The notes under the pieces were generated by a model, which saw nothing but the letters and a program-made list of their open reading frames with translations, searched no databases and was not told where the DNA came from. Source: a virus. From it: a stretch of DNA of 40,075 nucleotides. The position numbers and the translations under genes are program-made. This document shows, piece after piece, positions 26,001-40,075 of this stretch. Positions within the stretch are counted from its first letter, which is position 1, and each line of letters opens with the position of its first letter. The DNA lies in the IMG/VR virus record IMGVR_UViG_3300042544_001256, positions 1 through 40,075 of that record. The stretch is one strand, 5' to 3'.

Positions 26001-29000
26001 TCAGGCGGCCTTGGCTCAGTTCCATCAACTGTAATTTCAGATCCTGCCGGATATGATGCTGGATATTTAAATGCACGTAGATTAGTTGTAGCTAACAAGG
26101 CATTCTTACAAGCAGAAATTAGTGCATGGATTAATGTACAAATAGCAGGTAATATTGCTCCGTTTGTTGGATTCACTTATGGTGGCACTGATCAAACAAA
26201 CTGTGAACGAGATGTAGGGTATATTGTCGATGCTCTACGATACGATTTAACCTATGGCGGGAACTTGGAAACTATTGTAGCTGCTCGAGCATACTATTCT
26301 TATGGATCATATGTTGGTGACTCTGCTTCAAAGCTTCGTGCGTTAGCAGTACAAAATCGTATTAAGAGTATCATTGATAATATTGCCGTCGGAGATAATT
26401 CAGGCTGGACTAAGTCTGTAGGCAATGCACTTAACCAGGATGATTCGTTACCACACGGATCTGTACCAGCGGGCGCATTTGCACAAGCACGTATCCAAGA
26501 AATATACAATACAATTGACACAGGGGTAACTCCAGATACAATTGAACCTCCGACTAGTTGGGTTAGCAATGATCTTGTTCTAGCTAAAATAGCAATTACA
26601 AATTTAAAGGCTGGCATACAAGCTGGAGCAATTGAGTACATTAGTACAAAGTATCCAACATTAACATACAACACAGTCACTTGTTCTCGAGATGTTGGCT
26701 ATATGGTTGATGCTGTAGCATACGATGTAATGTTTGGTAGTAATTTTAGATCTATTACGGCTGGTAGAAGTTACTATAGAGCAACAGCATCTGCACAGTA
26801 TGTAATTGCAAACCAACTAGCAGCGACATTAGATACTATAACATATATTGACACAGCGATTAGACAAATAACAACCGGTCAATCTGGCTCAGTTGGTAGC
26901 ACATTAGCTGTTTCGAGAGTAGAGACTAGTGCCAATACTATGTATGATATTATTGCTAGCGGGTTAGGATCTATACCAACACTAGTATTACCAACACCAA
27001 CTGGCGGCACCGGCAATGCATATGACAGCAATTATTTAAATGCCCGACAACAAATTGTAGAAAACTACGCATTCATCAAAGCTGAAATTGCTCAATATCT
27101 AAATGTTAACTATAATGCTGTTTGGGTAGCACTTGGTGCAACTGGCCAGGCAGGATGTGCTCGAGATATTGGCTACATCTTAGACGGAGTACGCTATGAT
27201 ATTACCTACGGTGGTAACTTACAATCACTAATTGTAGGTAGTGCATACTATTCAAATTACGTTTTAGCTATTGGGTCTGGTGAGCTTACTGCAACAGTTG
27301 CGGCCTACACTAGAATTAAAACAATCGTTGGACAAATTGCACAACGTCAAACAGTAACACCTACTGTGGGTTATAGTGGTCCTTCACAATATTTAGGCGG
27401 TACCGGTGACCTAGTAGGTACCGCTGCAACCTTTGCTCAAGATCGGGTACAAGACGTTATTGATTGGGTTAGCAACGGTTACGCTAATGCAACTATTACG
27501 CCAAGTATTGCTTGGGCTAGTTCTGCACTACAAACAGCATTTGCAGAAGTTCAAGCAAAGAGATCTGAGATACAAGCTGATACGCTATGGTGGGTCTACA
27601 AGAATTATCAAAACTTAAACTTTAATGCTGATTTATGTTCTAGAGACGCGGGCTATATTGTTGATGCGCTAAGTTATGACTTAGTATTTGGCAGTAACTT
27701 TGCTGCAATCACAGCAGGAAGAAGTTATCAACGTGCAACACCGTCGGCCCAAGTGGTAGCAACAGTACAGCGGCAAGCTGAATTAGGTTCAGTTAATTTT
27801 ATCAAATATAAAGTTAAGCATATTGCAGCCTCGGGCGCAGTAGCACAGATTAATGCAATTGTTTCTGATGTGACTGGATTTATTAATGGCGGAGCAATTC
27901 CTCGAGTACAATGGACTAATCCATCAACGATTACCAGTGCATATGCTGCTGCGACCGTATTGTTAAGAGACAATGCACCATTTATTCAAGCAGAAATCAC
28001 AGCATGGATCAATGTACAAATTGCGGCCAACGCTTCTGGATTTGTTGGATTACAATTCAGCAGATCAGCTTGCGAAAGAGATGTAGGTTTAATTATTGAA
28101 GCACTAGTATACGATTTAACCTATGGTTACGGTGTTGGTAATATTGGTAAAATTGCTACACTGATTGCAGGTAAAGCATATTACTCTGCACTAACAAGCG
28201 TATTACAAATAGATTCAGGCGACTCAACAGCTACAATTGCAGCTTATAACAGATTAAAGGCTGTTGCACAGAGTGTAGTTCAAGACACCGCAGTAACTCC
28301 AAGTGCAGGTAATTCTGTATCTCAAGTAAGAGCAGTTACCGGCCAGACAGTTGGGTCAGTTGCTACTGCTACATCTGTAGGCACATTGGTTGATGTTATC
28401 ACCAATATAATTACCAACGGTCTTACAACCGGTGTTCCTCAGATAACTATTTCTGCGGTTGCTGGCGGCACAACATTTACTAGCGGAACACATAACCTTG
28501 CAGTAGGAGATGTTGTTATACCACAATCTACTCCAACTACAGGTAACGGTGGATTTGGCCTAGTTAGCGGAACAAGATACTATGTTGCATCTACACCGTT
28601 AGGCACAACATTTACATTGGCTGCATATCAAGGCGGTGCCGCAATTACTACCTTTACTAACGGTACAGGATTAACTATCGCTGCTGAGATTAACAACTTA
28701 CCAAGTACAAGTTGGGTATCTGCATCTTTAGTTACTTTACGTAATGCATTACAATCAAATAAAGCAACTATTAAAAATCAGATTACACAATATATTGCTA
28801 CTAACTATACTACGTTAGTATACAATTCTTCAACATGTGAAAGAGACGTTGGCTTGATTGTTGACTACATTGCCTACGATATGATGTTTGACAGTAACTA
28901 TCTAACAATAACCTCAGCAAGAAGCTATTTTAGAGCCCAGGCCTCGCTAGTAGTTGGAGCACAAAAAACAGCAACTGTTGCATCTTATAGATATCTAAAA

Positions 29001-32000
29001 ACTTTATTACTAACAGTTGTAGCTAATGATGCTACAGCAACTCGAAAAATTAAAGTGCTGATGGATATCATTATCAACACAATGTTAAATGGTATAGGTT
29101 CTACATCAGAAGTAACTGGTACCATAACTTATAAAAATAATATTGGATTGTATAACGCAGCAGAGTCTCTAAGATTGAATAAAGAATTCTTAGCAAGCGA
29201 AGCTACGTCATGGATTAGTGCAAACTTTGGCGGAACTGTGACAACAACTACTGCAACTACTAACCTGTTTACTACTAGCTCAGCGCACAATCTAATAGTA
29301 AGCGACCCTATTAGATTCACTGGGTCTATTATTACAAGTAGCGGAGTAACGCAGAATACTACATATTATGTATTAACAACACCTTCTGCTACTACGTTTA
29401 CACTAAGTACATCACAAACTCTTCCTATTCCAGTTGACGTAACTGCTAACGGAAGCGGCTCAATGACTGTAAATTATGCGTTTGATGTAACTTCTTGTAA
29501 GAGAGACATGAAAGAATACATCGATGGTATCATCTATGATTTAAGTTATACTGGTAACTATCGTTCATTACGTGCTGCAGAATTGTATAACAACGCAGTA
29601 AGCGGATCGACACTCGCTAATATGTTCTATGTTAGCAACGGTACAGGTTTAAGAAACTGTACATTAACCGGATTAAACGGAACACTAACAGAAGAAAATG
29701 AATACGGAACTAAACGACCAACTGCAGGCGCATATGTTGCATTAAATCCAGGATTTGGCCCAAATGATAGCAATGTATGGGTTCAAACAAGATCACACTA
29801 TTCACAAAACGTTACTATGTTTGGTACCGGATGTAGTGGTGCTAAGATTGACGGCGCAATACATGCCGGTGGCAATCGAAGCATGGTTAAAAACGACTTT
29901 ACAACAATTCTAAGCGACGGATTGGGCGTATGGGTTACGGGTGCTAATTCATTAACTGAATTAGTTTCAGTGTTTAACTACTACGGATATGCAGGGTACT
30001 TAGCAGAGCTAGGCGGTCGTATCCGTGCTACTAATGGTAACAGCTCATATGGTACGTACGGTACCATAGCTGAAGGAACTGACACTTACGAACAACCAAT
30101 TTTTGCAGTCGTTGACAATAGACAACAAGATGCAGTTATAAGCAATGTTGTAGTAAATGGTGTTTTAGGGACAATTCTTCGTGTAGAGTACTCTAATGCC
30201 GGCGTTAATCATACTAATGCAGATATTGGAATTAGTGGCGATGGCATTAATGTAGTAACAATCACTAACGAATTCCGTGATGGTGGTGTATTCAATACTA
30301 GAATTTTTGATCCTAATGATGGTAGTGCTACAGCAGACTATCCAGGGTATGGCGGATCAAACTATGTAAATGCTATTAATGCTGCACAGGGTGGTTCTCT
30401 AGGTGAGTTAACTATTGCTAACTCTGATGTTGCATTAGCAACCGCATATCCTACTATGAGAATTATGATAACTGCTGGTACAGGTGTTGGTCAATATGCT
30501 AATATCTTAGATTACAACAACGGTACCAAACTAGTAAAAATTTATAAAGATAGTTTTGCTACGTTAACTGTTACTGGCACTGCTGTTACCAACAATCTTT
30601 TAACGGTTGCAAGTACTGCTACATTATTTGCAGGAATGTCAATTTACTTAGGCACAACAGTTAACGGACTAACTGATAACACTTTGTATTACGTCAGAAC
30701 TGCTAACTTCTCTAGTACGCAATTCTCTGTAAGTTTAACAGGCGCTGCAGGAACCGCAGTAACTATTACTACAACTACTGCTAGCGGATTAACTATTCCG
30801 TTGTACGCCGCAGGATGGGATCATGCTGTTCCAGGAACAACAGTTTCTAATGCAATTGACTTAACTTCTAGTTATATTATCGAACCGCGTATTAGCTATA
30901 CTGCTCCTGGATATACTGCAACTACAAGAACAGTACCTGCTAATACATACATTGGCTCAACATTTGGTAATAATAAATTTGTTGCAATTGGCAACACTGG
31001 CACTGCTACAGCCTATAGCCTAGATGGAAAAACATGGGCATCGGGCGGAGTATTGCCAGTCAGTGCCAACTGGGGAGATGTTATCTTTGGTGGCGGATCT
31101 GGTGTAGTAGCTTCGATCACAGTAGGTGGTTTAGGCGGTGTCGGAGCAATCTTAACACCTATTATGGGAACTGCTAACAGCATTGGACTGCCGGGCGCTG
31201 ACCAAGTAGTCGGAGTCACTATTGTCGACGGTGGCCGAAACTATACAACTGCTCCAACAATTGTGTTTACTCCAACAAATGGCGGCCTGGGGGCAGTTGC
31301 AGTGTGTACTGTGTTAAATGGAAAAATTGATGCAATCTATATTGATAACGTAGGTTATCCAGGCACTAGTAACGGTTCAGGTTATAATTCTCCTCCTATT
31401 GTAACTGCAGATTCTAGTAAAATTACTAAGATGATAACAAGCCAGTGGGGAAGAAACTATACAACTCCGCCAACTGTTACAGTAAGCGCACCAGTCAGTG
31501 CTACTGCATGGTCTAGTGGTGATGCCGCAACCAGCGGCAATTACTATTCTCATGCTAACGTAGTTGGTTTAGTAACAACAACTAACTACTACCAAGCAGG
31601 TGCCACAGGCACGTTTGGCTCAGTAGCACCTACATTCCAAACAGGAACTGGCGCAAGCGGAACATACGGTGTTGCATTAACTTATGTAGGAACCTTAGCA
31701 ACTGGAACTGCTGTTTTGACTAATTCTGGCGTAAGCAGCATAACTATAACAGAACCGGGGCAGGGTTATACAAGTACACCTACAATTTCTGTAGTAGATA
31801 CTTCTGCTAAGTTTGTTGCAATTTCAGGCAGCGGATCAGTTGATGCTGCATATTTGCTAGCTAGCTCAGCTAACACCGCATCATGGACAGCAGGCAATAA
31901 TTTACCTACATCTACTATGACAGGAATTGCATATGGAGTTCTTAACGGAGTTAGCACATATGTAGTAGTAGGCGGAACCGGATCTAGTTCAGCAGCTTCT

Positions 32001-33815
32001 AGTGTAACTGGAATATCTTGGACTACACGTTCATTGCCAACATTAGGATCTGGTAACTACTCAGCAGTGGCTTTTGGTAACGGACAGTTTGTAGCAATAT
32101 CAACAGGTTCTACCCTAGCAACCGCAACAAGCACAAACGGCACTACATGGGTAGCCGGAGGTAACTTGCCATCAGGATTTACTACTGGTACAAGCATTAC
32201 CTACGGTAATGGACGTTTTGTAGCAATTTGTTCAGCATCTGGAACAGCAACTGCCTACAGTATTGACAACGGTACTACATGGAGAAGCTACGGTGTTGGA
32301 TTACCATCTACACAGACATGGTCCAAAATTAAATATGGTCAAGGACAATTTATAGCAATTGCTACAGGTAGTACAGTATGTGCTACAAGCCCAGACGGTA
32401 TCAACTGGACACTACGTACTATGCCAGGTAGCTCGTCTACTTGGTCAACACTATCATTTGGTAATATAAACTCTAGACCGTTATGGATTGCTATGAGTTC
32501 AACTAGTGGACAAAATGCAGCTTCTATTAATACCGGAGCACAAGCACTAGGACGTATAGCTGTAGCATCGGGCACAATGACTGAGGTTAGAATGGTTGAA
32601 CCGGGCAGTGCATATCCTCAGGGAACTGTAACAGCAACTACTGATATTACTAACTTGATTACTGCAGATACTACAGAAAACTTGATTGATAGTCAACCAA
32701 TTGTATTTTCAAATTGTAACGGCAGTGGCATTGTAACTGAAAAATTATATTATGTAATTGGATCAACTGTAACTAGCACACAATTTAAGGTTAGTCTAGT
32801 GGCAGGAAGTAGCACAGCAGTGGTATTAACCTCAGCTACTGGGTTAACTGGTACTTATAAAGCTGGACCGATTATAACACAGTTTGATCCTAACAAGGTT
32901 ATAACAGCATCACTAAACCCACGCACTGGCAACGGTGTACTGGCTAACCCAAGTTTTTACAATAGAGGAAACACGTTTACCACAGCAACTGGTACATCTG
33001 CAGGTGACGGTAATGCTGATCTATATCAGCCTAGTACATTTATTGCCGTTAGAAACTTACACAGAGTACCAGCAGCTGGGTCAAATGTGGTATTTGGTTC
33101 TTTACCAAGTACCTGGTATAAATTAGTTGCAGCAACAAATGTTCTAGGCAATGCTGGAGAGTATACTGCTACATTCCAAATTAGCCCAGGAATTAGTGTA
33201 TTAGAAGCGCCAATTGATGCAGATTTAATAACTACTACTATTAAGTATAGTCAAGTTCGTTTAACTGGACATGACTTCTTGTATATTGGTACTGGAAATC
33301 AAGCACAGACTAACTATCCGTTTGTTGACCCTACTACTGCTAGTATTGCGGCGCAAACTAATAGTTCAGGTGGAGGGCGTGTGTTCTTTACAAGTACTGA
33401 CCAAGACGGAAACTTTAACGTTGGTAACTTGTTTGGAGTTCAACAGTCAACCGGTACTGCTACATTGAACGCCGATGCGTTTAACTTATCGGGATTACAA
33501 TCCTTACAGTTAGGCGCATTGAATATTGGTGTTGGATCAGCAATTATTACACAGTTTAGTACAGATCCGTATTTTACTGCAAACAGTGATAATATTGTAC
33601 CTACACAGCGAGCAATTAAATCTTATATTACAGCCCAGATTGGTGGCGGACAGAGCTCATTAAATGTAAATACCCTAACAGCAGGTGTTGTGTATATTGC
33701 TAATGATTCTATTTCAACAACCAGTGGCGGTCAGTTAAATATAAAAGCAAAAATGAATTTTACAGGTGGAATTGACGGTGCTCCAGTAGCATTGGGATTC
33801 TTTTTACAACGATAA
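23007..33815 (+). CDS. Giant modular virion protein, 3602 aa, with Cys-Arg-Asp helical repeats, beta-helix and split propeller
   Basis: Paralogue of the 2702-aa protein with the same order but extra parts: seven CBM5/12-like repeats (1-550), interrupted twice by inserted modules; a DUF1565-like start (about 617-680); eight helical repeats (about 660-2195) with motif C-x-R-D-x-G-x-I-V-D-A-L-x-Y-D-L and conserved cysteines at residues 764, 1066, 1226, 1384, 1544, 1689, 1944 and 2164; beta-helix (about 2203-2355, GRIRATNGNSSYGTYG); a single beta module (about 2522-2600); beta-propeller (about 2648-3172) split by a 238-residue insertion; another beta module near 3210-3285; and the shared C-terminus (STDQDGNFNVG, VPTQRAIKSYI). 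There is no signal peptide, transmembrane segment or recognised active site. It is exceptionally long for a T4-type virion protein. Probably a fibre or tail-decorating whisker; VrlC-type cyanophage proteins are the closest named match I can think of, unverified. Confidence 0.85.
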   Translation: MAEFKLGRIRFVWKGQWTVGTPYLIDDVVSNGGKSYICVVNHTASSLFDTDLDYPGVPRWEIVADGTQWNGNWEPETYYNPGAVVKYGALVYICKTGHTSATYVAPTYLGLEDDQVNWELFATSFSWEGTWTTATRYRLNDFVVYGGTTYVCNTPHISAAISASITATNFTVLAGTATLTFASKVVAPYAVGATITLAGFSPAATTSPANNINTTFTVLTCTTTQLTFALTGTYTNSVLGTVSGTSQLGLELDAAKWDTFNQGITYLGDWNSASLPGGANVRYKQNDIVKWGADLWICITPHTSTGATIDTSKFSVFVNGFQFENSWNNSTVYQIGDTITYGGYSYIAKTNHTNKQPTSNPSDWAVFTTGINFVGEYDETTNYRVGDLIRNGAYTYIARLDSLAQTPVSATTYWARLNSGLRWTNTPETYLAVDSVAVLPGVGSGAKFDVTRTGTVYNVTLTSGQAGINYAALDRIKILGSNLGGISPANDITITVVTVSTSAVATFTASGRSVTWTVDTDYLLGDTASFGANSYICIDAHTSSSLNRPDADAQGDYWNLLTAGSEYNILTTTGDLVYYGDNGPERLPVGTNGQVLRSQDGVPVWANYGLINNLVFVGPLGRDVAYPDAGSTIDQPWKSVRYAAKQVEEGYLNPQAKMLLVKNKQFMMKEITNWVNYTYTVRISAADSLDDIFTCITTVNLVVNMPISFTGTIGGVTAGVTYYVKTIVNGTTFTISDLSGGTLRQLTTGSGTMTGSLVYDYAFCERDTGLIVDALIHDITHGGTGKITAAAKAYYTAAGNAYINNNFGAQTTQTVAAYTYLSTLVEKILGNIAWRNYQAMNGITSGVIQIVDTSFTAEAGTSITAAELLSIITNGILAGSVTAIPVAIYPNTTISVKTGTFTEVLPIVISPYTAVVGDELRSSVIQPATANPLLATDKAKTTSALNRIASVAGDIVQNIVVTPTVGNTETQYYVGGYAGSGTTSTAVGAKTTVISTILSGGLGSVPSTVISDPAGYDAGYLNARRLVVANKAFLQAEISAWINVQIAGNIAPFVGFTYGGTDQTNCERDVGYIVDALRYDLTYGGNLETIVAARAYYSYGSYVGDSASKLRALAVQNRIKSIIDNIAVGDNSGWTKSVGNALNQDDSLPHGSVPAGAFAQARIQEIYNTIDTGVTPDTIEPPTSWVSNDLVLAKIAITNLKAGIQAGAIEYISTKYPTLTYNTVTCSRDVGYMVDAVAYDVMFGSNFRSITAGRSYYRATASAQYVIANQLAATLDTITYIDTAIRQITTGQSGSVGSTLAVSRVETSANTMYDIIASGLGSIPTLVLPTPTGGTGNAYDSNYLNARQQIVENYAFIKAEIAQYLNVNYNAVWVALGATGQAGCARDIGYILDGVRYDITYGGNLQSLIVGSAYYSNYVLAIGSGELTATVAAYTRIKTIVGQIAQRQTVTPTVGYSGPSQYLGGTGDLVGTAATFAQDRVQDVIDWVSNGYANATITPSIAWASSALQTAFAEVQAKRSEIQADTLWWVYKNYQNLNFNADLCSRDAGYIVDALSYDLVFGSNFAAITAGRSYQRATPSAQVVATVQRQAELGSVNFIKYKVKHIAASGAVAQINAIVSDVTGFINGGAIPRVQWTNPSTITSAYAAATVLLRDNAPFIQAEITAWINVQIAANASGFVGLQFSRSACERDVGLIIEALVYDLTYGYGVGNIGKIATLIAGKAYYSALTSVLQIDSGDSTATIAAYNRLKAVAQSVVQDTAVTPSAGNSVSQVRAVTGQTVGSVATATSVGTLVDVITNIITNGLTTGVPQITISAVAGGTTFTSGTHNLAVGDVVIPQSTPTTGNGGFGLVSGTRYYVASTPLGTTFTLAAYQGGAAITTFTNGTGLTIAAEINNLPSTSWVSASLVTLRNALQSNKATIKNQITQYIATNYTTLVYNSSTCERDVGLIVDYIAYDMMFDSNYLTITSARSYFRAQASLVVGAQKTATVASYRYLKTLLLTVVANDATATRKIKVLMDIIINTMLNGIGSTSEVTGTITYKNNIGLYNAAESLRLNKEFLASEATSWISANFGGTVTTTTATTNLFTTSSAHNLIVSDPIRFTGSIITSSGVTQNTTYYVLTTPSATTFTLSTSQTLPIPVDVTANGSGSMTVNYAFDVTSCKRDMKEYIDGIIYDLSYTGNYRSLRAAELYNNAVSGSTLANMFYVSNGTGLRNCTLTGLNGTLTEENEYGTKRPTAGAYVALNPGFGPNDSNVWVQTRSHYSQNVTMFGTGCSGAKIDGAIHAGGNRSMVKNDFTTILSDGLGVWVTGANSLTELVSVFNYYGYAGYLAELGGRIRATNGNSSYGTYGTIAEGTDTYEQPIFAVVDNRQQDAVISNVVVNGVLGTILRVEYSNAGVNHTNADIGISGDGINVVTITNEFRDGGVFNTRIFDPNDGSATADYPGYGGSNYVNAINAAQGGSLGELTIANSDVALATAYPTMRIMITAGTGVGQYANILDYNNGTKLVKIYKDSFATLTVTGTAVTNNLLTVASTATLFAGMSIYLGTTVNGLTDNTLYYVRTANFSSTQFSVSLTGAAGTAVTITTTTASGLTIPLYAAGWDHAVPGTTVSNAIDLTSSYIIEPRISYTAPGYTATTRTVPANTYIGSTFGNNKFVAIGNTGTATAYSLDGKTWASGGVLPVSANWGDVIFGGGSGVVASITVGGLGGVGAILTPIMGTANSIGLPGADQVVGVTIVDGGRNYTTAPTIVFTPTNGGLGAVAVCTVLNGKIDAIYIDNVGYPGTSNGSGYNSPPIVTADSSKITKMITSQWGRNYTTPPTVTVSAPVSATAWSSGDAATSGNYYSHANVVGLVTTTNYYQAGATGTFGSVAPTFQTGTGASGTYGVALTYVGTLATGTAVLTNSGVSSITITEPGQGYTSTPTISVVDTSAKFVAISGSGSVDAAYLLASSANTASWTAGNNLPTSTMTGIAYGVLNGVSTYVVVGGTGSSSAASSVTGISWTTRSLPTLGSGNYSAVAFGNGQFVAISTGSTLATATSTNGTTWVAGGNLPSGFTTGTSITYGNGRFVAICSASGTATAYSIDNGTTWRSYGVGLPSTQTWSKIKYGQGQFIAIATGSTVCATSPDGINWTLRTMPGSSSTWSTLSFGNINSRPLWIAMSSTSGQNAASINTGAQALGRIAVASGTMTEVRMVEPGSAYPQGTVTATTDITNLITADTTENLIDSQPIVFSNCNGSGIVTEKLYYVIGSTVTSTQFKVSLVAGSSTAVVLTSATGLTGTYKAGPIITQFDPNKVITASLNPRTGNGVLANPSFYNRGNTFTTATGTSAGDGNADLYQPSTFIAVRNLHRVPAAGSNVVFGSLPSTWYKLVAATNVLGNAGEYTATFQISPGISVLEAPIDADLITTTIKYSQVRLTGHDFLYIGTGNQAQTNYPFVDPTTASIAAQTNSSGGGRVFFTSTDQDGNFNVGNLFGVQQSTGTATLNADAFNLSGLQSLQLGALNIGVGSAIITQFSTDPYFTANSDNIVPTQRAIKSYITAQIGGGQSSLNVNTLTAGVVYIANDSISTTSGGQLNIKAKMNFTGGIDGAPVALGFFLQR
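23025..24660 (+). repeat. Seven CBM5/12-like repeats with two inserted modules
   Basis: Copies include KGQWTVGTPYLIDDVVSNGG, NGNWEPETYYNPGAVVKYG, EGTWTTATRYRLNDFVVYGG, ENSWNNSTVYQIGDTITYGG and TWTVDTDYLLGDTASFG. A beta module (about 23479-23752) follows the third unit's H-I, and a G-x-G-A-x-F-D module (about 24294-24545) breaks the seventh unit between its two tryptophans. Confidence 0.7.
24985..29590 (+). repeat. Eight helical repeats with conserved Cys-x-Arg-Asp motif, arranged as an alternating A-B supra-repeat
   Basis: Cys codons of the motif are at 25296, 26202, 26682, 27156, 27636, 28071, 28836 and 29496. Type A units (second, fourth, sixth) start with a helix of the form N-A-R-x-x-x-x-N-x-A-F-I-x-A-E-I and continue to Y-D-[LI]-T-Y-G. 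Type B units (third, fifth, seventh) read Y-D-x-[MV]-F-x-S-N-[FY] followed by R-S-Y-x-R-A. A-to-A and B-to-B spacings are 954 bases for the first pair of each. The later spacings are 915 and 1200, the latter lengthened by an inserted beta module. The first and last units are diverged. Confidence 0.8.
30940..32530 (+). repeat. Beta-propeller repeats split by a 238-residue insertion
   Basis: Blades have 'G-n-x-x-F-V-A-I...S-x-D-G-x-x-W' (SLDGKTW, SIDNGTTW, SPDGINW). The first and second blades are separated at D-V-I-F-G-G-G / A-K-F-V-A-I-S by about 31095-31808, which codes G-x-x-Y-T-x-x-P-T repeats (GGRNYTTAPTIVF, WGRNYTTPPTVTV, PGQGYTSTPTISV) and a further Tyr/Gly module. Confidence 0.7.
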
Positions 33816-33832: not shown

Positions 33833-34165
33833 ATGGCAACAGGAAGATTAGGTAATATTGCGGTAGGTGTGGCAACTAACGCAACGGCATACACCGTGCC
33901 GGCGGGATTCTACACAGTTTGTAATGTGACGTTAGTGAATCGAAACGCAACAGCAGTTAGGATTCGAGTAGCAATGACAACTTCGGGTGGCGCTACGCCA
34001 ACACCAAACCCACAAGAATGGTTAGAATATGATACTATTGTTGTGCCAGGCGGTGTGTTCGAGCGAACTGGTCTGGTATTAAATTACGGACTAAATATAG
34101 TGGTATATTCAGATGCTGCAAATGTTGGGTGTACAGTATATGGCATCGAAACTTCAACAGTATAA
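33833..34165 (+). CDS. Small beta-rich structural protein, 110 aa
   Basis: It lies 17 bases after the 3602-aa gene, with GGAGA ahead of the ATG. The 110-residue product begins MATGRLGNIAVGVATNATAY, then T-V-P-A-G-F-Y-T-V-C-N-V-T-L-V-N-R, a strand with V-R-I-R-V-A-M-T, T-I-V-V-P-G-G-V-F-E-R-T-G, L-N-Y-G-L-N-I-V-V-Y-S and a C-terminal G-C-T-V-Y-G-I-E. This is a compact beta-sandwich pattern like the 110- and 109-aa proteins at 2952 and 14096. Proteins of this size and pattern occur beside fibres in many T4-like marine phages, but I know of no experimental role. A connector or cap for the adjoining fibres is inferred. Confidence 0.72.
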   Translation: MATGRLGNIAVGVATNATAYTVPAGFYTVCNVTLVNRNATAVRIRVAMTTSGGATPTPNPQEWLEYDTIVVPGGVFERTGLVLNYGLNIVVYSDAANVGCTVYGIETSTV

Positions 34166-34178
34166 TAGGTGAGATAAT

Positions 34179-36251
34179 ATGGCACGTTTTAACACTACAC
34201 AATCGACAATTTCAGTAACGGAGGCTACTACACTAACCTACGTACTTGATAAGTCTACAATTTTATTATCCGGCACAGCAGGTTACACCTTAACATTATC
34301 GACCCCAGTACCATTTCCGGGCACAATTCAAAGTATATACAACTCCACAGGTGGCAATGTAACTATTCAAACATCAGCTGGAAATATAATTGGTAATGGA
34401 TTTACGGCTGCTACTACTCAAATTATTCCAAATAATACCACTTATACTCTAACATCAAATGGCACAGATTATATTATTACTAATAATCAAGGTGGTCCAA
34501 TTTCGGTTACAGCTGGTACATTTAGTGGTGCATTAACTGCAAACAGTACAGTATCGTTAAGTCCGGCAAACGCAAACGTAACAGCTAGTCCAACAGGATC
34601 TGGTACTGTTACTATTGCTCCAGCAACTGCTGGTACAATCAATAATGTAGCAATTGGCGGCACTACTAGAGGCGCCGGTAATTTTACTACACTAGATGCT
34701 AATGCAGCAGTGGGATTAAGCCCATCAAATGCTACTGTAACAATCAGTCCAACTGGTACTGGTACAGTAGCAATGAGTCCTGCTACTACCGGTAACATTA
34801 ATAACACAAACATTGGTGGTACTACTCGGGCCGCAGGCGCATTTACCACACTAGGTTCAAATGCACAAGTGACCATGACTGGTGGCACAACCAGTACTAC
34901 TACTGGCACTGGTCAAGTAGTTGTAACAGGCGGTGTAGGTGTCAGTGAAAATTTAAACGTTGGCGGTACAATTACATCAGCATCCAGCGGCATACAAAAT
35001 ACCCCAATTGGTGGTACTACTCGAGCAGCAGGAGCATTTACTACATTAGCAGCTAACTCAACAATTACAATGTCGGGTGCAGCTACTTTTTCTAGTACTA
35101 TCATTGTACCTGAACCATCAAGTTCAACTCACGCAGCATCTAAAAACTATGTTGATACTAAAATTTCTTGGTCAACACCTTCAACAATTTATCTTACTAA
35201 AACGACTGGTTCAATGTCCTATGCTTTTGCAGCGGGCAACATTGCTGGAGATTCAGTTTCATATAGTTTAATATCTGGTTCAGTACCAGCAGGCATGAGC
35301 CTAGCATCAAATGGTCTTCTTAGTGGGACTCCGTCTGCAACATCAAATACTACTTACACGTTTACTTTACGAGCAACTGGCGGATCGCCTACGCAAAACG
35401 TTGATAGGGCATTTACCTTTTATCTTATAATACCGCCTCCAGTAGGCCAAATTTTGTATGAAGGATCTCAAAGCGGTACCAATGGCGGTGTAACAGCATA
35501 TACATGGGTTGCACCTGCTGGTGTTTCCACAGTGAGTGTGGCTGTAATTGGCGCAGGCGGTGGCGGCTATTATGGGTGGGCTGTGTGCGGCGGATCAGGC
35601 GGCGGCATGGCATGGGGAGCAGGAATACCTGTCACCCCAGGGTCCAGTTACACAGTTCAAGTTGGAGACGGTGGCTGCTGGAGCGGCAACGGTGGCGGAT
35701 ATTCATGTTTTCCAAACTTTATGGGCGGCGGCGGTCGTTGCGGATGTTGCCAAGGATGTTGCGCCTATGGCGGTTCGTACACTGCTGCCTGCGGTAGTAG
35801 TGGTATGGTAGCGTATCCAGATACAGCCGGAGGTGGCGGTGGCGCTGGCGGTTATGGCCCAACTAACTGTAATGCAGCCACTTCTGGATATCGAGGATGC
35901 TACGGCGGTGGTGGCAGCGCAACCAGCCACCACTCATCAACTCACGGCACAGGAGGCGGTGGCGGCACAGGCATCCTTGGCCAAGGTACAGACGGTGCAT
36001 GTGGCAATCCCGGCACAGGCCATGGTACATCAGGCGGTGCCGGCCAAGGTGGATCCGGCGGAACTTGTGGCAAATACGGAGAACCATATTCAAACGGTCA
36101 GGGTAACGGATTTGCCTGCGGTGGCAACTATGGTGGCGGCGGAGGCGGAGGCGGAACCGGCCAAGGCGGCGGCTGGGGCGGCAAAGGTGCAGTCCGTATC
36201 ATTTGGGGACCGGGCCGATCATATCCAAGCACTGGTACAGCTAATCAATAA
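34179..36251 (+). CDS. Tail fibre with Ig-like domain and Cys/Gly-rich C-terminal adhesin domain, 690 aa
   Basis: Residues 1-105 are a beta-rich head. About 105-315 contains three copies of I-G-G-T-T-R-x-A-G-x-F-T-T-L with S-P-T-G-[ST]-G-T-V between them, a phage fibre shaft repeat. About 320-332 has ASKNYVDTKI, a frequent fibre motif. About 361-400 resembles a He_PIG/Ig-like domain (SGSVPAGMSLASNGLLSGTP). From about 445 on the protein is glycine-rich (runs such as GGGGGAGG) and ends GAVRIIWGPGRSYPSTGTANQ, the typical end of glycine-rich phage fibre tips. The glycine region has 14 cysteines, including G-R-C-G-C-C-Q-G-C-C, while I find none earlier. Polyglycine-helix tips bind receptors in gp38-type adhesins, so this is the best candidate for the terminal receptor-binding protein. 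The chaperone-like gene follows at once. Confidence 0.85.
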   Translation: MARFNTTQSTISVTEATTLTYVLDKSTILLSGTAGYTLTLSTPVPFPGTIQSIYNSTGGNVTIQTSAGNIIGNGFTAATTQIIPNNTTYTLTSNGTDYIITNNQGGPISVTAGTFSGALTANSTVSLSPANANVTASPTGSGTVTIAPATAGTINNVAIGGTTRGAGNFTTLDANAAVGLSPSNATVTISPTGTGTVAMSPATTGNINNTNIGGTTRAAGAFTTLGSNAQVTMTGGTTSTTTGTGQVVVTGGVGVSENLNVGGTITSASSGIQNTPIGGTTRAAGAFTTLAANSTITMSGAATFSSTIIVPEPSSSTHAASKNYVDTKISWSTPSTIYLTKTTGSMSYAFAAGNIAGDSVSYSLISGSVPAGMSLASNGLLSGTPSATSNTTYTFTLRATGGSPTQNVDRAFTFYLIIPPPVGQILYEGSQSGTNGGVTAYTWVAPAGVSTVSVAVIGAGGGGYYGWAVCGGSGGGMAWGAGIPVTPGSSYTVQVGDGGCWSGNGGGYSCFPNFMGGGGRCGCCQGCCAYGGSYTAACGSSGMVAYPDTAGGGGGAGGYGPTNCNAATSGYRGCYGGGGSATSHHSSTHGTGGGGGTGILGQGTDGACGNPGTGHGTSGGAGQGGSGGTCGKYGEPYSNGQGNGFACGGNYGGGGGGGGTGQGGGWGGKGAVRIIWGPGRSYPSTGTANQ
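35527..36213 (+). repeat. Glycine- and cysteine-rich coding segment
   Basis: GGN codons dominate this stretch, making it visibly more GC-rich than the surroundings and leaving several other frames open. It encodes G-rich loops of varying length separated by aromatic, Cys and Ser/Thr residues, as in the polyglycine sandwich of phage adhesin tips. Such repeats are common sites of host-range change. Confidence 0.75.
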
Positions 36252-36274: not shown

Positions 36275-36829
36275 ATGAAAATATATGTAAAGATTGATGA
36301 GAATGGAGATCCTGCATCATACCCAATAACCCAAGAAAATTTAAATCATGTCTTTGGAATGGGTACCGACTGGGATGACGAATTTGCCTTGACGCAAGGG
36401 TTTTCTGTAGTTAATAATTCTGAAATGCCCGCACTTGAAACATACACCGAAGTTACAAAAGGTGAAATTGTTAAAAACGCCCAAGGTAAAATTGAGCAGA
36501 TGTGGTCTGTTACGGAAATTTCACGAGAAGAAAAAATAAGAAGATGGATTCTAGGCCCACGAGAATATTACTTAATATCTTGCGACTGGACTCAACTCCC
36601 TGATGCTCCAATTAGTGATGAAGAAAGGGCACAATGGACAATTTATCGAGCAGCTCTCAGGAACATTACCGATACTACTGATATTGATATCTTAAAAGAT
36701 AGAATTGATGTACCCTGGCCAGAGCCGCCGACAAAACCGTCAAAAGATACCAAGTATGCAATAGCTCCACCACCGCTACCAAGATTGGATCCACTTGCAC
36801 TAATAATACCACCAGTAGAACCGGTATAA
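36275..36829 (+). CDS. Tail fibre assembly chaperone-like protein, 184 aa
   Basis: Residues about 85-150 match the Phage_tail_APC type of tail assembly chaperone: an R-x-Y-x-L-I-S-C-D-W-T-Q-L-P-D-A-P-I-S-D-E segment, then A-Q-W-T-I-Y-R-A-A-L-R-N-I-T, then V-P-W-P-E-P-P. Such proteins help fold or trimerise the distal fibre or adhesin and usually lie just downstream of it, exactly as here. The N-terminal half (MKIYVKIDENGDPASYPI, then T-E-V-T-K-G) is the usual variable part. The C-terminal 35 residues are Pro-rich (APPPLPRLDPLALIIPPVEP) and look unstructured. GAGGA lies about 10 bases before the ATG. It is the last gene of the late + strand unit. Confidence 0.82.
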   Translation: MKIYVKIDENGDPASYPITQENLNHVFGMGTDWDDEFALTQGFSVVNNSEMPALETYTEVTKGEIVKNAQGKIEQMWSVTEISREEKIRRWILGPREYYLISCDWTQLPDAPISDEERAQWTIYRAALRNITDTTDIDILKDRIDVPWPEPPTKPSKDTKYAIAPPPLPRLDPLALIIPPVEPV

Positions 36830-36837
36830 TTATTAAT

Positions 36838-36866
36838 AAAAAACGGACTGTATAGTCCGTTTTTTT
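36838..36866. terminator. Strong bidirectional intrinsic terminator
   Basis: AAAAAACGGACT (36838-36849) pairs with AGTCCGTTTTTT (36854-36865) around a GTAT loop, giving a U tract on both strands. It stands between convergent genes (chaperone on +, halogenase on -) and should stop both transcripts. Confidence 0.93.
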
Positions 36867-36870
36867 ATGA

Positions 36871-38040
36871 TCAAGAAAAATATTTGTACCCTAAATTTTT
36901 ATCCCAGTTAATCCAGTGTCTAATGTACCATCTTGCAACAGACCTTTCTTGAATAATTTTTCCATTAGAAATACATGATTTTATATCTTTAACAGTCTCA
37001 GCCCATCGTTGATCAGTTTGCAATTTATTAGTAGTAGTAGCAACCGTAGTTTTCCAAAATTCACTATCAAAAGTTGAGCCACCGTGATATGCAAAATTAA
37101 TAAAATTTTCAATATCCTGTGCAGCTTCAGTTAGTCTATAGTTAACATCATCTATTGAACATTGCCCATAAATGTAATCAGTTAAGTTTCTCATAACTGT
37201 ACTGTAAAAATAGCCGGATAGCGCCTCCATCGGTTCAAAGAACAATGCGGCATTACCATTTTTAATTATGCGTCCATTAAAAAAACTTTTTGCATAGTAG
37301 CTGTTAAATTTAAACTCTTTTAGATTTAAATCTGTAGTATTAAAGATTTTTTCAATATCCGCTACTGCATCTTCTCTTGAAGTAATTTTATCGTTATACA
37401 AGTAACCCCAACCTTGTCTAGTAGTTAACGGAATACCAAACATCCAACCGTTGGCATGTGCTTGATGAATTGTAGTTCCCCATGTGCCTGGTTCATTTAT
37501 GACGTTTACTAAGCAGTGATTAACAGGATCATTAATGACATTGTAATCTGTTAGGTCTTTTGGAGTTCCTCTACAGTCGATTACAAAATCAAAATGGTGG
37601 CTGACATTGTCAACAGTAACAGTTGCTAGATTAACAGTACTAGTAAGATCAGTAACTGATCCTTCTATTGTTTTAAATCTATCGCCCCATATTTTTTTAA
37701 ATCGACCAAAACAAAAATTTTTTAATTTACCATTGTTAAAATGCATAGCATATTGCGGTGGATGCATTAGGGAAGTAAAGTCTGTATCTCTCCAATTCTT
37801 CCAAGTAACTCCTAATTTTAGTGTAGCATCTAGCTTGTCTGCATCTTCTAGTAGTGTAAAGCCAGCGCCTTCGAACAGCACTGTAGGAAATCCTGGATCC
37901 ATCGATTCACCTATTTCTAGAATTTTTACATTCGGATCGTATATTGCAGTAACAGTGTCATCCTCATTACCTAGCCAACGAAGTGCATGACTCAATGAGG
38001 TTATACCAGCAGTACCTACACCTATAACAGCTATTTTCAT
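36871..38040 (-). CDS. Divergent flavin-dependent halogenase-like protein, 389 aa
   Basis: The N-terminus has a Rossmann FAD-binding G-x-G-x-x-G (residues 7-12, VIGVGTAGI), then the G-E-S of the halogenase flavin loop (44-46, EIGES) and a lysine (K75 in ATLKLGVTWKNW) where PrnA/RebH-type enzymes have the catalytic Lys. The W-x-W-x-I-P motif that separates halogenases from monooxygenases appears as W-M-F-G-I-P (199-204), so its second Trp is Phe. F-F-E-P-M-E (267-272) corresponds to the F-x-E-P-L-E-S motif with the catalytic Glu; D-C-R-G (155-158) replaces D-C-T-G. At 389 residues it is well short of the usual 500-540. Its ATG overlaps the stop of the oxygenase-like gene (ATGA), so the two are translationally coupled. 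Substrate is unknown; a non-halogenating flavin oxygenase is a real alternative. Confidence 0.8.
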   Translation of the reverse strand: MKIAVIGVGTAGITSLSHALRWLGNEDDTVTAIYDPNVKILEIGESMDPGFPTVLFEGAGFTLLEDADKLDATLKLGVTWKNWRDTDFTSLMHPPQYAMHFNNGKLKNFCFGRFKKIWGDRFKTIEGSVTDLTSTVNLATVTVDNVSHHFDFVIDCRGTPKDLTDYNVINDPVNHCLVNVINEPGTWGTTIHQAHANGWMFGIPLTTRQGWGYLYNDKITSREDAVADIEKIFNTTDLNLKEFKFNSYYAKSFFNGRIIKNGNAALFFEPMEALSGYFYSTVMRNLTDYIYGQCSIDDVNYRLTEAAQDIENFINFAYHGGSTFDSEFWKTTVATTTNKLQTDQRWAETVKDIKSCISNGKIIQERSVARWYIRHWINWDKNLGYKYFS

Positions 38041-38765
38041 AATTCTTTTCCAGTTGGGTTATCAAAGATTACATAATTATGCCACTCGGGGTGATCATTA
38101 TGCTCAAACAAATTAACAAATTCTGACAGAGAAATATCGAAAGCAAGGGTAATTCGTTCGGAGTTAGTTGTACTATGATGCGGAGTAGTGTAGTGCGGAA
38201 TATTATGTTGAAATAGTGTAATTTTTCCTATCCGATTATAACTAACATATATTTCTGGATCGTTAATTTGATTTATTGGATTTATATAAACTGTACTAGT
38301 ATCTTCACATTGCACTGTCACGTGCCCGCCTAAATATGACCATTCATCGGTTGAGTGGATATGCGGACACATTTCTTCACTTTCTCGCATTACATTGGCC
38401 CAGCATTGTATCATAACATTTGATCTAGGCACATTATATGCTTGAAGAAATTCTAAATATTTCTCATGTATTTGAACTTTTAATTTTTCTATCTCTGGTT
38501 CTGTCCATGAAAACACATTAAATGACTTCCAGCGCGAGGTTAAACTATCATTACCTAATCCGGTATACGCAGCAGTTGTTGGCGGAGTTGTGTTAATAAT
38601 TATCTTTTCTTTTTCTAAGATTATATTTGCAATTTTTTTAAAATCTATACCCTCAATAAAGTTTTCAGCAAATATATAATGGTAAATTGGGGCAAACGGA
38701 CTCTTAGGAGGTTTGCTTTTAAATTCTGAGAATTTCCAATTACTATCTCGTACAGTACCATTCAT
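38037..38765 (-). CDS. 2OG-Fe(II) oxygenase-like protein (TIGR02466 type), 242 aa
   Basis: The pattern fits the TIGR02466/2OG-FeII_Oxy_5 family found in many marine phages: a P-H-I-H-S-T-D-E-W-S-Y-L-G-G segment (first metal ligands, H135/H137 and possibly D140), then V-Y-I-N-P (159-163), then G-K-I-T-L-F-Q-H-N-I-P-H-Y-T-T-P-H with the distal histidine (H191 or nearby), and E-R-I-T-L-A-F-D-I with the 2-oxoglutarate-binding Arg (R204). Family members are thought to hydroxylate unknown substrates. It is the first gene of a minus-strand pair, followed with a 4-base ATGA overlap by the halogenase-like gene. The ATG follows ACAAGG by about 10 bases. Function within the family is unproven and the exact ligand assignment is by eye. 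Confidence 0.75.
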   Translation of the reverse strand: MNGTVRDSNWKFSEFKSKPPKSPFAPIYHYIFAENFIEGIDFKKIANIILEKEKIIINTTPPTTAAYTGLGNDSLTSRWKSFNVFSWTEPEIEKLKVQIHEKYLEFLQAYNVPRSNVMIQCWANVMRESEEMCPHIHSTDEWSYLGGHVTVQCEDTSTVYINPINQINDPEIYVSYNRIGKITLFQHNIPHYTTPHHSTTNSERITLAFDISLSEFVNLFEHNDHPEWHNYVIFDNPTGKEL

Positions 38766-38785
38766 AATAACGTAGCCTTGTTGTA

Positions 38786-38798
38786 CAGTTACTTATCA
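38786..38798 (-). promoter_or_regulatory. Divergent promoter element, left arm (reads TGATAAGTAACTG on the minus strand)
   Basis: On the minus strand this contains GATAAGTA, one mismatch from the late octamer GATAAATA, 24 bases upstream of the oxygenase ATG (octamer end to ATG), and AAGG lies in the leader. It is a perfect inverted copy of 38825-38837. Confidence 0.6.
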
Positions 38799-38824
38799 GG
38801 AATTCTCACTCCTTGTTAACATCG

Positions 38825-38837
38825 TGATAAGTAACTG
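38825..38837 (+). promoter_or_regulatory. Divergent promoter element, right arm (TGATAAGTAACTG)
   Basis: GATAAGTA at 38826-38833 ends 19 bases before the halogenase ATG, the same geometry as the late promoters at 4056 (17) and 22977 (22). AGAGGA (38840-38845) is the ribosome binding site. The 13-bp sequence is identical to the left arm read on the other strand. Confidence 0.6.
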
Positions 38838-38852
38838 CATAGAGGAATACAA

Positions 38853-40075
38853 ATGCCTAAAAAAATCGAAAATATTGTAGTAGTTGGCGGCGGCAGCGCA
38901 GGTTGGATGACTGCTGCCACCTTAATTAACTTTTTTCCAAATAAGAAAATAACAGTAATAGAAAGTCCAGATGTTCCAATTGTAGGTGTTGGTGAAAGCA
39001 CACTAGGCGGTATTAGGCATTGGATGCATGCCTTAGGAATAGACGAACAAGATTTTATGAAGTATACTAACGCTTCTTATAAAATGAGCATTAAATTTAC
39101 CGATTTTTATAATAAGGATGCAGGGTCATTTCACTACCCGTTTGGTACTCCTGTGGGAGATGACGTAGGAGGCGGTGTAAAAGATTGGCAGGCTAAAAAG
39201 GTATTTTATCCTGAAACCCCAGTTGAAGATTATTGCAGAACGTATTTTTCAACAATGCCAATCATAGAAAATAATAAATTTACTAATGATCCCACCGGCT
39301 TTGATAATTATAGACCTGACACAGATGTAGCATATCATTTTGAATCAGTTCTATTTGGTAAATGGTTATGTGATCATTATTGTATTCCCCGCGGCGTAAT
39401 CCGTATTCAAGATACTGTTTCCAACATTAAAACTTCAGACTCTGGCATAGAAAAATTAATTATGGAGAATGGTGACGAAATAGTTGCTGATTTGTTTGTT
39501 GACTGCACTGGATGGAAAAGTATGCTATTAGGCGAAGCACTAGCGGAACCTTTTATTTCTTATGCAGATATGTTACCTAACAATCGTGCATGGGCTGTGC
39601 AAGTTCCCTACGTAGAAATTGAAAAAGAATTAGAACCCTACACAAATTGTACGGCTATCAATAACGGATGGTGTTGGAATATTCCGTTATGGAGTAGACT
39701 TGGTACCGGGTATGTTTACAGTGATAAATTTGTTAGCCCTGAAGATGCTAAGGAAGAATTTAAACAGTATCTAATGAGCGACAAAATGACTGTGCCACGA
39801 ACTAAAGAGCAGGTAGAAGCGTTAACTTATAAAGATATTACTATGCGTATTGGAATCCACGAACGCACTTGGGTTAAAAATGTAGTTGCAATTGGATTAA
39901 GTGCAGGGTTTATTGAACCTCTTGAAAGTAACGGATTATTTACTGTACATGAATTCCTATTTAAAGTAGTTGCAACATTGGATCGAGAAGGATACGTAAC
40001 ACAATGGGATCGAGATGTATATAATTCTGCAACCTTGGAATTATATAACAATTTTGCAGAATTTGTAGCAATGCA
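38853..40075 (+). CDS. Flavin-dependent tryptophan halogenase-like enzyme, 3' end outside window
   Basis: The frame stays open to the window edge, giving 407 residues of a family that usually runs 500-540. All hallmark motifs are present: G-G-G-S-A-G (FAD-binding, residues 12-17), V-G-V-G-E-S-T (44-50), the catalytic-type Lys in N-A-S-Y-K (K77), D-C-T-G-W (217-221), the complete W-C-W-N-I-P (W-x-W-x-I-P, 273-278) followed by G-T-G-Y-V-Y-S, and F-I-E-P-L-E-S (353-359) with the catalytic-type Glu358. The family oxidises halide with FADH2 and O2 to hypohalous acid and delivers it through Lys to the substrate. Marine T4-like phages carry relatives, among them the cyanophage Syn10 halogenase VirX1, which prefers iodide; whether this is an orthologue needs alignment. 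It is transcribed away from the oxygenase-halogenase pair from a shared 87-bp region. Confidence 0.93.
   Translation, partial: MPKKIENIVVVGGGSAGWMTAATLINFFPNKKITVIESPDVPIVGVGESTLGGIRHWMHALGIDEQDFMKYTNASYKMSIKFTDFYNKDAGSFHYPFGTPVGDDVGGGVKDWQAKKVFYPETPVEDYCRTYFSTMPIIENNKFTNDPTGFDNYRPDTDVAYHFESVLFGKWLCDHYCIPRGVIRIQDTVSNIKTSDSGIEKLIMENGDEIVADLFVDCTGWKSMLLGEALAEPFISYADMLPNNRAWAVQVPYVEIEKELEPYTNCTAINNGWCWNIPLWSRLGTGYVYSDKFVSPEDAKEEFKQYLMSDKMTVPRTKEQVEALTYKDITMRIGIHERTWVKNVVAIGLSAGFIEPLESNGLFTVHEFLFKVVATLDREGYVTQWDRDVYNSATLELYNNFAEFVAM

Follow-up and report, generated by a model that had tools for sequence, protein, structure and literature searches.

We analysed a viral DNA stretch of 40,075 bases (IMG/VR record IMGVR_UViG_3300042544_001256, positions 1 to 40,075; hereafter the window), at whose right end three enzyme genes follow a tail fibre gene and its assembly chaperone. 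The minus strand encodes a short flavin halogenase homologue of 389 amino acids (HalS, 36871..38040) and a 2-oxoglutarate (2OG)-Fe(II)-oxygenase-like protein of 242 amino acids (P0002, 38037..38765). The plus strand encodes a second, VirX1-related flavin halogenase (HalL, 38853..40075), which is open at the window end. The fibre (34179..36251, plus strand, 690 amino acids) has a glycine-rich C-terminal part, and the chaperone (36275..36829, plus strand, 184 amino acids) matches PF16778 (E 1.7e-12) and phrog_4912 (E 3.4e-12). The original prediction had placed two halogenase-like genes and one oxygenase-like gene here in divergent units beside the fibre and chaperone; the open reading frames (ORFs) and profile matches bear out the positions, family calls, layout and adjacency, and the 4-nt ATGA overlap between HalS and P0002 can be read directly at 38037-38040.

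HalS matches the Pfam family Trp_halogenase (PF04820) with an E of 2.9e-29 and 102.7 bits against a cut-off of 21, and residues G7, G9, G12, K75, E269, P270 and E272 are invariant in 48/48 relatives. The test for the motif WxWxIP failed: at that site the window protein and 8/8 members of an aligned set (A2) read GWMFGIP (WxFxIP), and the invariance of this stretch among the 48 HalS sequences is partly due to selection, because the scan patterns spanned it and one step required NGWMFG. The description of the left enzyme as divergent and coupled to the oxygenase by the overlap holds. The predicted HalS model (predicted local distance difference test, pLDDT, 94.7) matches halogenases over its whole length, with Z scores of 39.8 to AbeH and 30.7 to VirX1, and all 50 Foldseek matches listed were halogenases; QhpG was not among the 50 matches listed in the Z-scored comparison, which excludes nothing. 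By sequence, HalS retains the catalytic Lys and Glu and the nucleotide-binding Gly residues, and its predicted fold is that of a halogenase. A second HalS copy (56% identity) occurs in the related contig L005, and two Campylobacter phages (HM246721.1, HE815464.1) carry distant matches (~24% identity) annotated as tryptophan halogenase. A bacterial origin of HalS found no support: among 45 genome-contig stretches that matched our patterns, none encoded a HalS relative, which for a pattern scan is no proof of absence.

P0002 matches phrog_81 ('2OG-Fe(II) oxygenase', E 1.6e-18) and scores 25.7 bits to 2OG-FeII_Oxy_5 (PF13759), just below the cut-off of 27, so that the curated family score is not reached. 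Residues W122, H135, H137 and H191 are invariant, and R204 nearly so, among its 46 relatives (set A7); the metal site reads HxH (46/46)...H...R instead of HxD...H...R, and the test for an HxD/E...H triad failed. The model (pLDDT 86.7) matches 3bvc (E 1.1e-7) and 2rg4, then SnoK, PHD2, P4H and other 2OG enzymes. P0002 is thus predicted to adopt the double-stranded beta-helix fold of 2OG oxygenases, with putative metal chemistry. Its solved relatives 3bvc and 2rg4 were both deposited as uncharacterised.

HalL has 407 residues in the window and 529 in the near-identical contig L003, and matches PF04820 with an E of 2.3e-92 (310.7 bits against the cut-off of 21). The alignment confirms that the right-hand enzyme has every halogenase motif expected of it, namely GxGxxG (GGGSAG), WxWxIP (WCWNIP), K77, E355 and E358. 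Its nearest solved structure is VirX1 (320 bits), and the two fall into one clade of 44 among 114 rows (Shimodaira-Hasegawa-like approximate likelihood ratio test, SH-aLRT, 100) in a quick tree that includes no bacterial reference. The comparison with VirX1 that had been suggested thus puts HalL inside the VirX1 clade and HalS in a separate one; by homology and motifs, HalL is a predicted halogenase of that clade. QhpG is the best NCBIfam model for both HalS and HalL, at 20.0 and 44.5 bits against a cut-off of 240, so the curated equivalog score that would mark them as QhpG-type peptidyl-Trp oxygenases is not reached.

The right window end cuts the island off. HalS is identical in the contigs L003 (98 kb) and L007 (120 kb), which are near-copies of the window, and there the island continues for ~7 kb more; the original prediction had the genes right, and its right edge was an arbitrary cut. 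HalL is the first gene of a long operon, which in L003 continues with a 2OG protein (PF13759, 71.5 bits), a glycosyltransferase (GT)-like protein of 313 amino acids (weak heptosyltransferase signal, E 0.0069, 15.5 bits, below the cut-off of 170), a second 2OG protein (66.6 bits), a carbamoyltransferase (CarT; PF16861, E 6.9e-57), a third 2OG protein (43.7 bits), a 208-amino-acid protein that reads HxD...H...R and has no Pfam match, and lastly a third halogenase (PF04820, E 1.9e-85). The CarT is NodU-like (E 1.5e-39, 136 bits, below the cut-off of 1000), and the profile of the GT-like family found no match among solved structures. With the window genes, the island totals three halogenases, five 2OG-type proteins, one CarT and one GT-like protein in ~10 kb. 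Its largest gap (L003, 856-11170) is 87 nt, between divergent units, so that a gene for a precursor peptide or a scaffold would hardly fit in; ORF reading and Pfam searches of that interval saw only enzyme-like ORFs and no scaffold-forming or precursor-peptide gene. The suggestion that the enzymes form a joint tailoring pathway gains plausibility from this larger, tight operon, and such a pathway may exist.

Two labels met in these regions deserve comment. Proteins labelled 'DNA endonuclease V' or denV (PHROG 274 and the S-SSM7 annotation; L003:2338-2964, L205:11447-12001) score with our local 2OG profiles, and since L003:2338-2964 reads HxD...H...R, the denV label may be wrong. Similarly, a family called 'ferrochelatase' in PHROGs and some phage records (set A11; L009:12482-13240 and, in phage Syn10, L202:20122-20664) has an invariant HxD...H...R, whose residues H108, D110, H161 and R163 (17/17) correspond to the metal triad of 2OG oxygenases; from sequence, this label looks wrong.

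The gene order is conserved in relatives, as had been anticipated. All five loci L003-L007 (L004-L006 match HalS at 73-89%) place a 2OG gene directly before HalS, overlapping it in four and 1 nt apart in L005, and each also has the assembly chaperone, HalL, GT and CarT. L006 has the HalL-2OG-GT-2OG-CarT block in reverse orientation as a unit, and the block recurs in L098-L100 (HalS 53-56% identical; an extra 2OG gene in some), with a shorter form in L025. In the halogenase tree, which is a quick one with some long branches, the three halogenases of the window virus fall into separate clades of 27 (HalS), 44 (HalL/VirX1) and four rows (the third halogenase), each with an SH-aLRT of 100. By sequence they are not recent tandem copies, and their separate placement suggests different jobs.

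Halogenase homologues were collected from at least 165 loci, of which two belong to the window itself (some scans kept the best 80). Once the window, L001, L002 and loci with a halogenase segment in common had been taken out, 121 non-redundant loci remained for the counts. Gly-rich ORFs were defined as having at least 33% Gly over 100 amino acids and neighbourhoods as lying within 5 kb. Near halogenases there were 89 Gly-rich ORFs in 880 kb of flank (57/121 loci; 10.1 per 100 kb), against one in 457 kb at terminase anchors and one in 534 kb at PhoH anchors (1/80 loci each; 0.2 per 100 kb), controls that came from single-protein queries and therefore cover a narrower range of relatives than the halogenase set does. 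The control loci contain five Gly-rich ORFs in all, four of which adjoin a 2OG or halogenase gene. The contrast is similar for 2OG-like ORFs, with 414 in 1158 kb (96/121 loci) near halogenases against 12 in 588 kb (11/80) for terminase and 17 in 595 kb (14/80) for PhoH; these 2OG-type profiles were grown from ORFs of the same loci and merged, with the family p252 counted as 2OG, and the Pfam 2OG cut-off is passed by 3/5 ORFs so labelled in L003 and 6/8 in L009 (p252 counted). Of the halogenase loci, 25 extend at least 5 kb to both sides; Gly-rich ORFs occur in 18 of these and 2OG genes in 21. ORFs of the p278/p240 family were also close by in 28/121 halogenase loci and in none of the 80 terminase or 80 PhoH loci, CarT in 11/121 and GT in 7/121. 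Locus counts are uncorrected for relatedness, and the neighbour families are not ranked against each other. Three of 17 aligned members of the p278/p240 family match Pfam DUF6065, one member (L202:13574-14362) lies directly after VirX1, and the family profile gave weak partial matches to solved structures.

Two or more halogenase ORFs, including those cut by contig ends, occur in 41/121 loci. The original prediction had called two halogenases plus an oxygenase unusual in a virus; this fails on that count and also because such gene sets were published in 2010 (PMC3037559). T4-like markers were found in 11/121 loci within the locus DNA examined, and four of nine flanking proteins typed against PHROGs had no match; with so few markers and incomplete typing, the linkage cannot be assigned to a count of virus lineages.

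Longer records and named phages give a comparable picture. Halogenases occur in each of 20 long records, and in six of the eight contigs read for gene content Gly-rich ORFs lie within ~1.1 kb of a halogenase, which in G004 is a lone one. Eight regions from seven isolates were chosen out of the halogenase matches (71 and 65 records), with S-SZBM1 as a ninth region. The VirX1 locus of Syn10 has three Gly-rich ORFs, a 164-amino-acid ORF, two halogenases, a p278-family ORF and, after these, several 2OG-like genes in a row. Sf-CH11, P-TIM40 and S-RIM44 have a comparable set, with Gly-rich ORFs, halogenase and 2OG genes close together, while HTVC008M has its 2OG block ~1 kb from a Gly-rich ORF and its halogenase ~8 kb further on. 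Liquid chromatography-mass spectrometry identified ORFs 51-54 of S-SZBM1 as virion proteins (51 by one peptide; PMC9146016). They are followed, in the order 54 to 51, by ORFs 50, 49 and 48 (48, 31 and 32% Gly, so that only ORF 50 passes our 33% threshold), ORF 47, halogenase 46, and 2OG genes 44 and 43; the published 30-row virion protein table lists 51-54 and none of 42-50 (PMC9146016). By prediction ORFs 48-50 would each give 8-9 tryptic peptides of 7-30 residues, and a low copy number could also account for their absence from the table. In the tail island of S-SSM7, fibre ORFs (L205:2757-5150) do not exceed 25% Gly and have an unusually high content of Cys, Trp, Tyr and His; beside them lie genes for a halogenase, a carbamoyltransferase and sugar enzymes.

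Halogenases predict Gly-rich fibres far above controls, and we consider it a serious possibility, if somewhat short of an even chance, that the genes in the window are the left edge of a phage tailoring island that modifies the phage's own Gly-rich tail-fibre (adhesin) tip post-translationally. A slightly more tentative proposal is that many viruses have such a dedicated adhesin-tailoring island, in which halogenases (VirX1 included), 2OG-type enzymes and sometimes carbamoyl- or glycosyltransferases diversify a Gly-rich tip. A host flavin reductase would supply reduced flavin adenine dinucleotide (FADH2), with which HalL, HalS and the third halogenase would make hypohalous acid and transfer it to the catalytic Lys, by which aromatic or His residues of the fibre tip would become halogenated. 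The 2OG-type enzymes would hydroxylate other tip side chains, CarT and the GT-like protein may cap the new hydroxyls, and the fibre chaperone would help assembly, so that the receptor-binding surface would be chemically altered or more stable. We infer the enzyme activities, the fibre as substrate, the target residues and every chemical step; what was observed is gene identity by homology, the kept catalytic residues, the predicted folds of HalS and P0002, the operon structure and the linkage of halogenases to Gly-rich ORFs. The fibre tip is favoured over host metabolites because of the recurrent Gly-rich fibre neighbour, because no scaffold gene was seen in L003, and because relatives act on peptides or proteins: QhpG on protein Trp (PMC7876137), ChlH on peptide Trp (PMC12518702), and SrpI as a brominase of a ribosomally synthesised and post-translationally modified peptide (RiPP; PMC10858898). 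The original prediction had left the target among a host metabolite, a signal and a virion protein, and of these three the context favours the virion protein. Our confidence stays below the halfway mark, since no modified residue, the observation that would decide the question, was seen. A role in DNA modification, which 2OG, GT and CarT genes might suggest, was set aside given the linkage to fibres.

Several observations weigh against tip tailoring. Among the halogenase loci, 64/121 lack a Gly-rich ORF within 5 kb, and at the 33% threshold G003 and G007, of the eight long contigs, contain no such ORF. Trp is not enriched in tips near halogenases (median 1.2% of non-Gly residues, against 2.1%, p 0.16; 111 such tips against ten near neither enzyme), and a Trp-substrate signature was accordingly rejected. 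His was higher in tips near halogenases (p 0.037), which, as one of 14 uncorrected tests, is not evidence. A loose Gly-Asn/Ser...His pattern occurs in 60/117 tips near halogenases, 4/17 near 2OG genes only and 1/17 near neither, and since it was chosen post hoc with relatedness uncontrolled it is a hint of where to look only. In the split used for Trp and His each 20-kb piece is treated alone, and two 'neither' tips (both in L195) are in truth close to halogenases of the neighbouring piece. In S-SSM7 and S-SSM5 the short halogenases (HalS homologues) are located elsewhere, close to petE/PTOX and beside gp33. CarT and GT point equally to sugars and, being near halogenases in a minority of loci, make glycan chemistry possible at those loci.

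The linkage could also reflect an insertion site and not a function, in that the stretch between tail-fibre and neck genes may tolerate cargo and the enzymes hitch-hike there. In loci anchored on neck genes whether or not they have a halogenase (39/79 usable), tailoring genes and Gly-rich fibres do occur separately: Gly-rich fibres stand without enzymes in L376 and L402 and enzyme blocks without Gly-rich ORFs in L383, L394 and L399. Gly-rich ORFs are weakly associated there, both with sets of at least two tailoring genes (3/3/5/28, Fisher p 0.088) and with halogenases (1/5/1/32, p 0.29), which also counts against tailoring. The same is true of a rotation test on the eight long contigs, which was only marginal (p ~0.04; six or seven contigs), and order and strand differ among relatives. 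Halogenases thus predict Gly-rich fibres while the converse prediction is poor, an asymmetry that fits optional tailoring of a common adhesin type and is also compatible with a shared insertion hot spot. Terminase genes, however, can be near (4.8 kb from a Gly-rich ORF in Sf-CH11) and yet show almost no Gly-rich linkage, and loci with one halogenase (L040, L071, L092, L135, L142) also place it directly after a Gly-rich ORF. Furthermore, from the Gly-rich ORFs to the end of the 2OG block in Syn10, Sf-CH11, P-TIM40, S-RIM44 and HTVC008M, no photosynthesis, carbon or phosphate gene is annotated, the doubtful 'ferrochelatase' apart, though many ORFs there are only 'hypothetical'. On this balance we regard hitch-hiking as unlikely. 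As a separate observation, L394, L399 and L386 have 2OG-like genes after a similar-looking protein of 562-569 amino acids, with no halogenase or Gly-rich ORF.

Two further explanations place the substrate outside the virion. A halogenase, an oxygenase, a carbamoyltransferase and a GT together resemble natural-product tailoring sets, and the island might make or tailor a small molecule or host metabolite as auxiliary metabolism, with the fibre close by incidentally. VirX1 accepts many small aromatics (PMC8407142), and a published reading is that cyanophage halogenation possibly alters host metabolites (PMC10452541). Such a role is nonetheless improbable given the strong enrichment of Gly-rich fibre ORFs near halogenases and, in L003, an island without a seen scaffold-forming gene and with little space for a precursor. 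The enzymes might instead decorate the host cell surface (lipopolysaccharide or glycan), for example to block superinfection, as could be read from the weak heptosyltransferase signal of the GT-like protein and the NodU-like CarT (both below cut-off) and from the phosphoheptose isomerase, nucleotidyltransferase and epimerase genes in the S-SSM7 island. We know of no host-surface glycan substrate for flavin halogenases, however, and CarT and GT are not usual island parts, which makes surface decoration quite improbable.

The fibre lies among other tail genes of the window, in which two ORFs match T4-like baseplate wedge subunits. An ORF of 3602 amino acids upstream of it (23007..33815, plus strand; 100% match over the part present in L003) is, by position, probably virion structural, and is followed by a small tail-fibre-like ORF of 110 amino acids (33833..34165, plus strand; phrog_11338 tail fiber protein, E 2.8e-10). 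The fibre itself matches phrog_4474 (function unknown; E 5.5e-26) and nothing in Pfam at E up to 1; it reaches up to 48% Gly over 100 amino acids, as measured on the identical ORF of L003. Between the convergent chaperone and HalS genes, a hairpin flanked by A and T runs (36840..36866) is probably a bidirectional terminator; it was seen by direct reading and was not among the matches of a separate hairpin scan. Between the divergent units, a 13-bp inverted repeat (38786..38837) is kept in L004 and has one change, in the second arm, in L005. The stretch 38766-38852 folds with a z of -4.69 against 200 shuffles, and the repeat is a possible shared operator or RNA hairpin.

If the fibre is indeed the substrate, a virion protein would be halogenated and oxidised by virus-encoded enzymes, and the receptor-binding chemistry of phages would extend beyond the 20 amino acids, with chemical variation as a source of diversity beside sequence change. 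Fibre halogenation, if shown, would as far as we know be a new kind of viral modification, and modified fibre tips could be missed by ordinary peptide searches.

Parts of this picture have precedents. It is already known that viruses encode halogenases, that a single genome can have several, and that 2OG oxygenases recur; a halogenase-2OG island tied to Gly-rich fibres is apparently new, since the open-access literature we searched, mainly titles and the starts of abstracts, yielded no paper connecting either type of phage gene with a Gly-rich fibre. HalS shares its fold with PrnA, RebH and PyrH (PF04820; Z 31.6-36.3 for their entries) and keeps the catalytic Lys and Glu, but those enzymes have ~500-550 amino acids whereas HalS has 389 and a WxFxIP motif. 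The substrate of PrnA, RebH and PyrH is free Trp. QhpG, MibH (by its entry title among the structural matches), SrpI and ChlH are flavoenzymes with a related fold whose substrates are peptides or proteins; unlike in those systems, no leader peptide or crosslinked substrate was seen in the island. A 2010 comparison of 26 T4-like genomes described the same gene types in several copies per genome, with two genomes that each have two prnA genes and two or three 2OG oxygenases, one of them also with three carbamoyltransferases (PMC3037559). The accessible text of that comparison, however, treats the 2OG genes as metabolic or repair genes without linking them to a Gly-rich fibre module, and 2OG oxygenases of marine phages have been loosely tied to 2OG levels or DNA repair (PMC3037559, PMC9146016). 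The closest system is VirX1, the halogenase of cyanophage Syn10 (PDB 6qgm), whose locus likewise combines fibre ORFs rich in Gly with 2OG-like genes and a second halogenase, whereas our local profiles found no GT or CarT in the Syn10 stretch and the HalL operon has both. VirX1 has a large accessible active site and was characterised on non-natural substrates (PMC8407142), and we found no natural substrate reported for it in the parts of PMC10452541 and PMC8407142 that were consulted. The neighbourhood it shares with the genes described here suggests one candidate substrate, the fibre, for both VirX1 and the many 2OG oxygenases of marine phages, in cultivable isolates.

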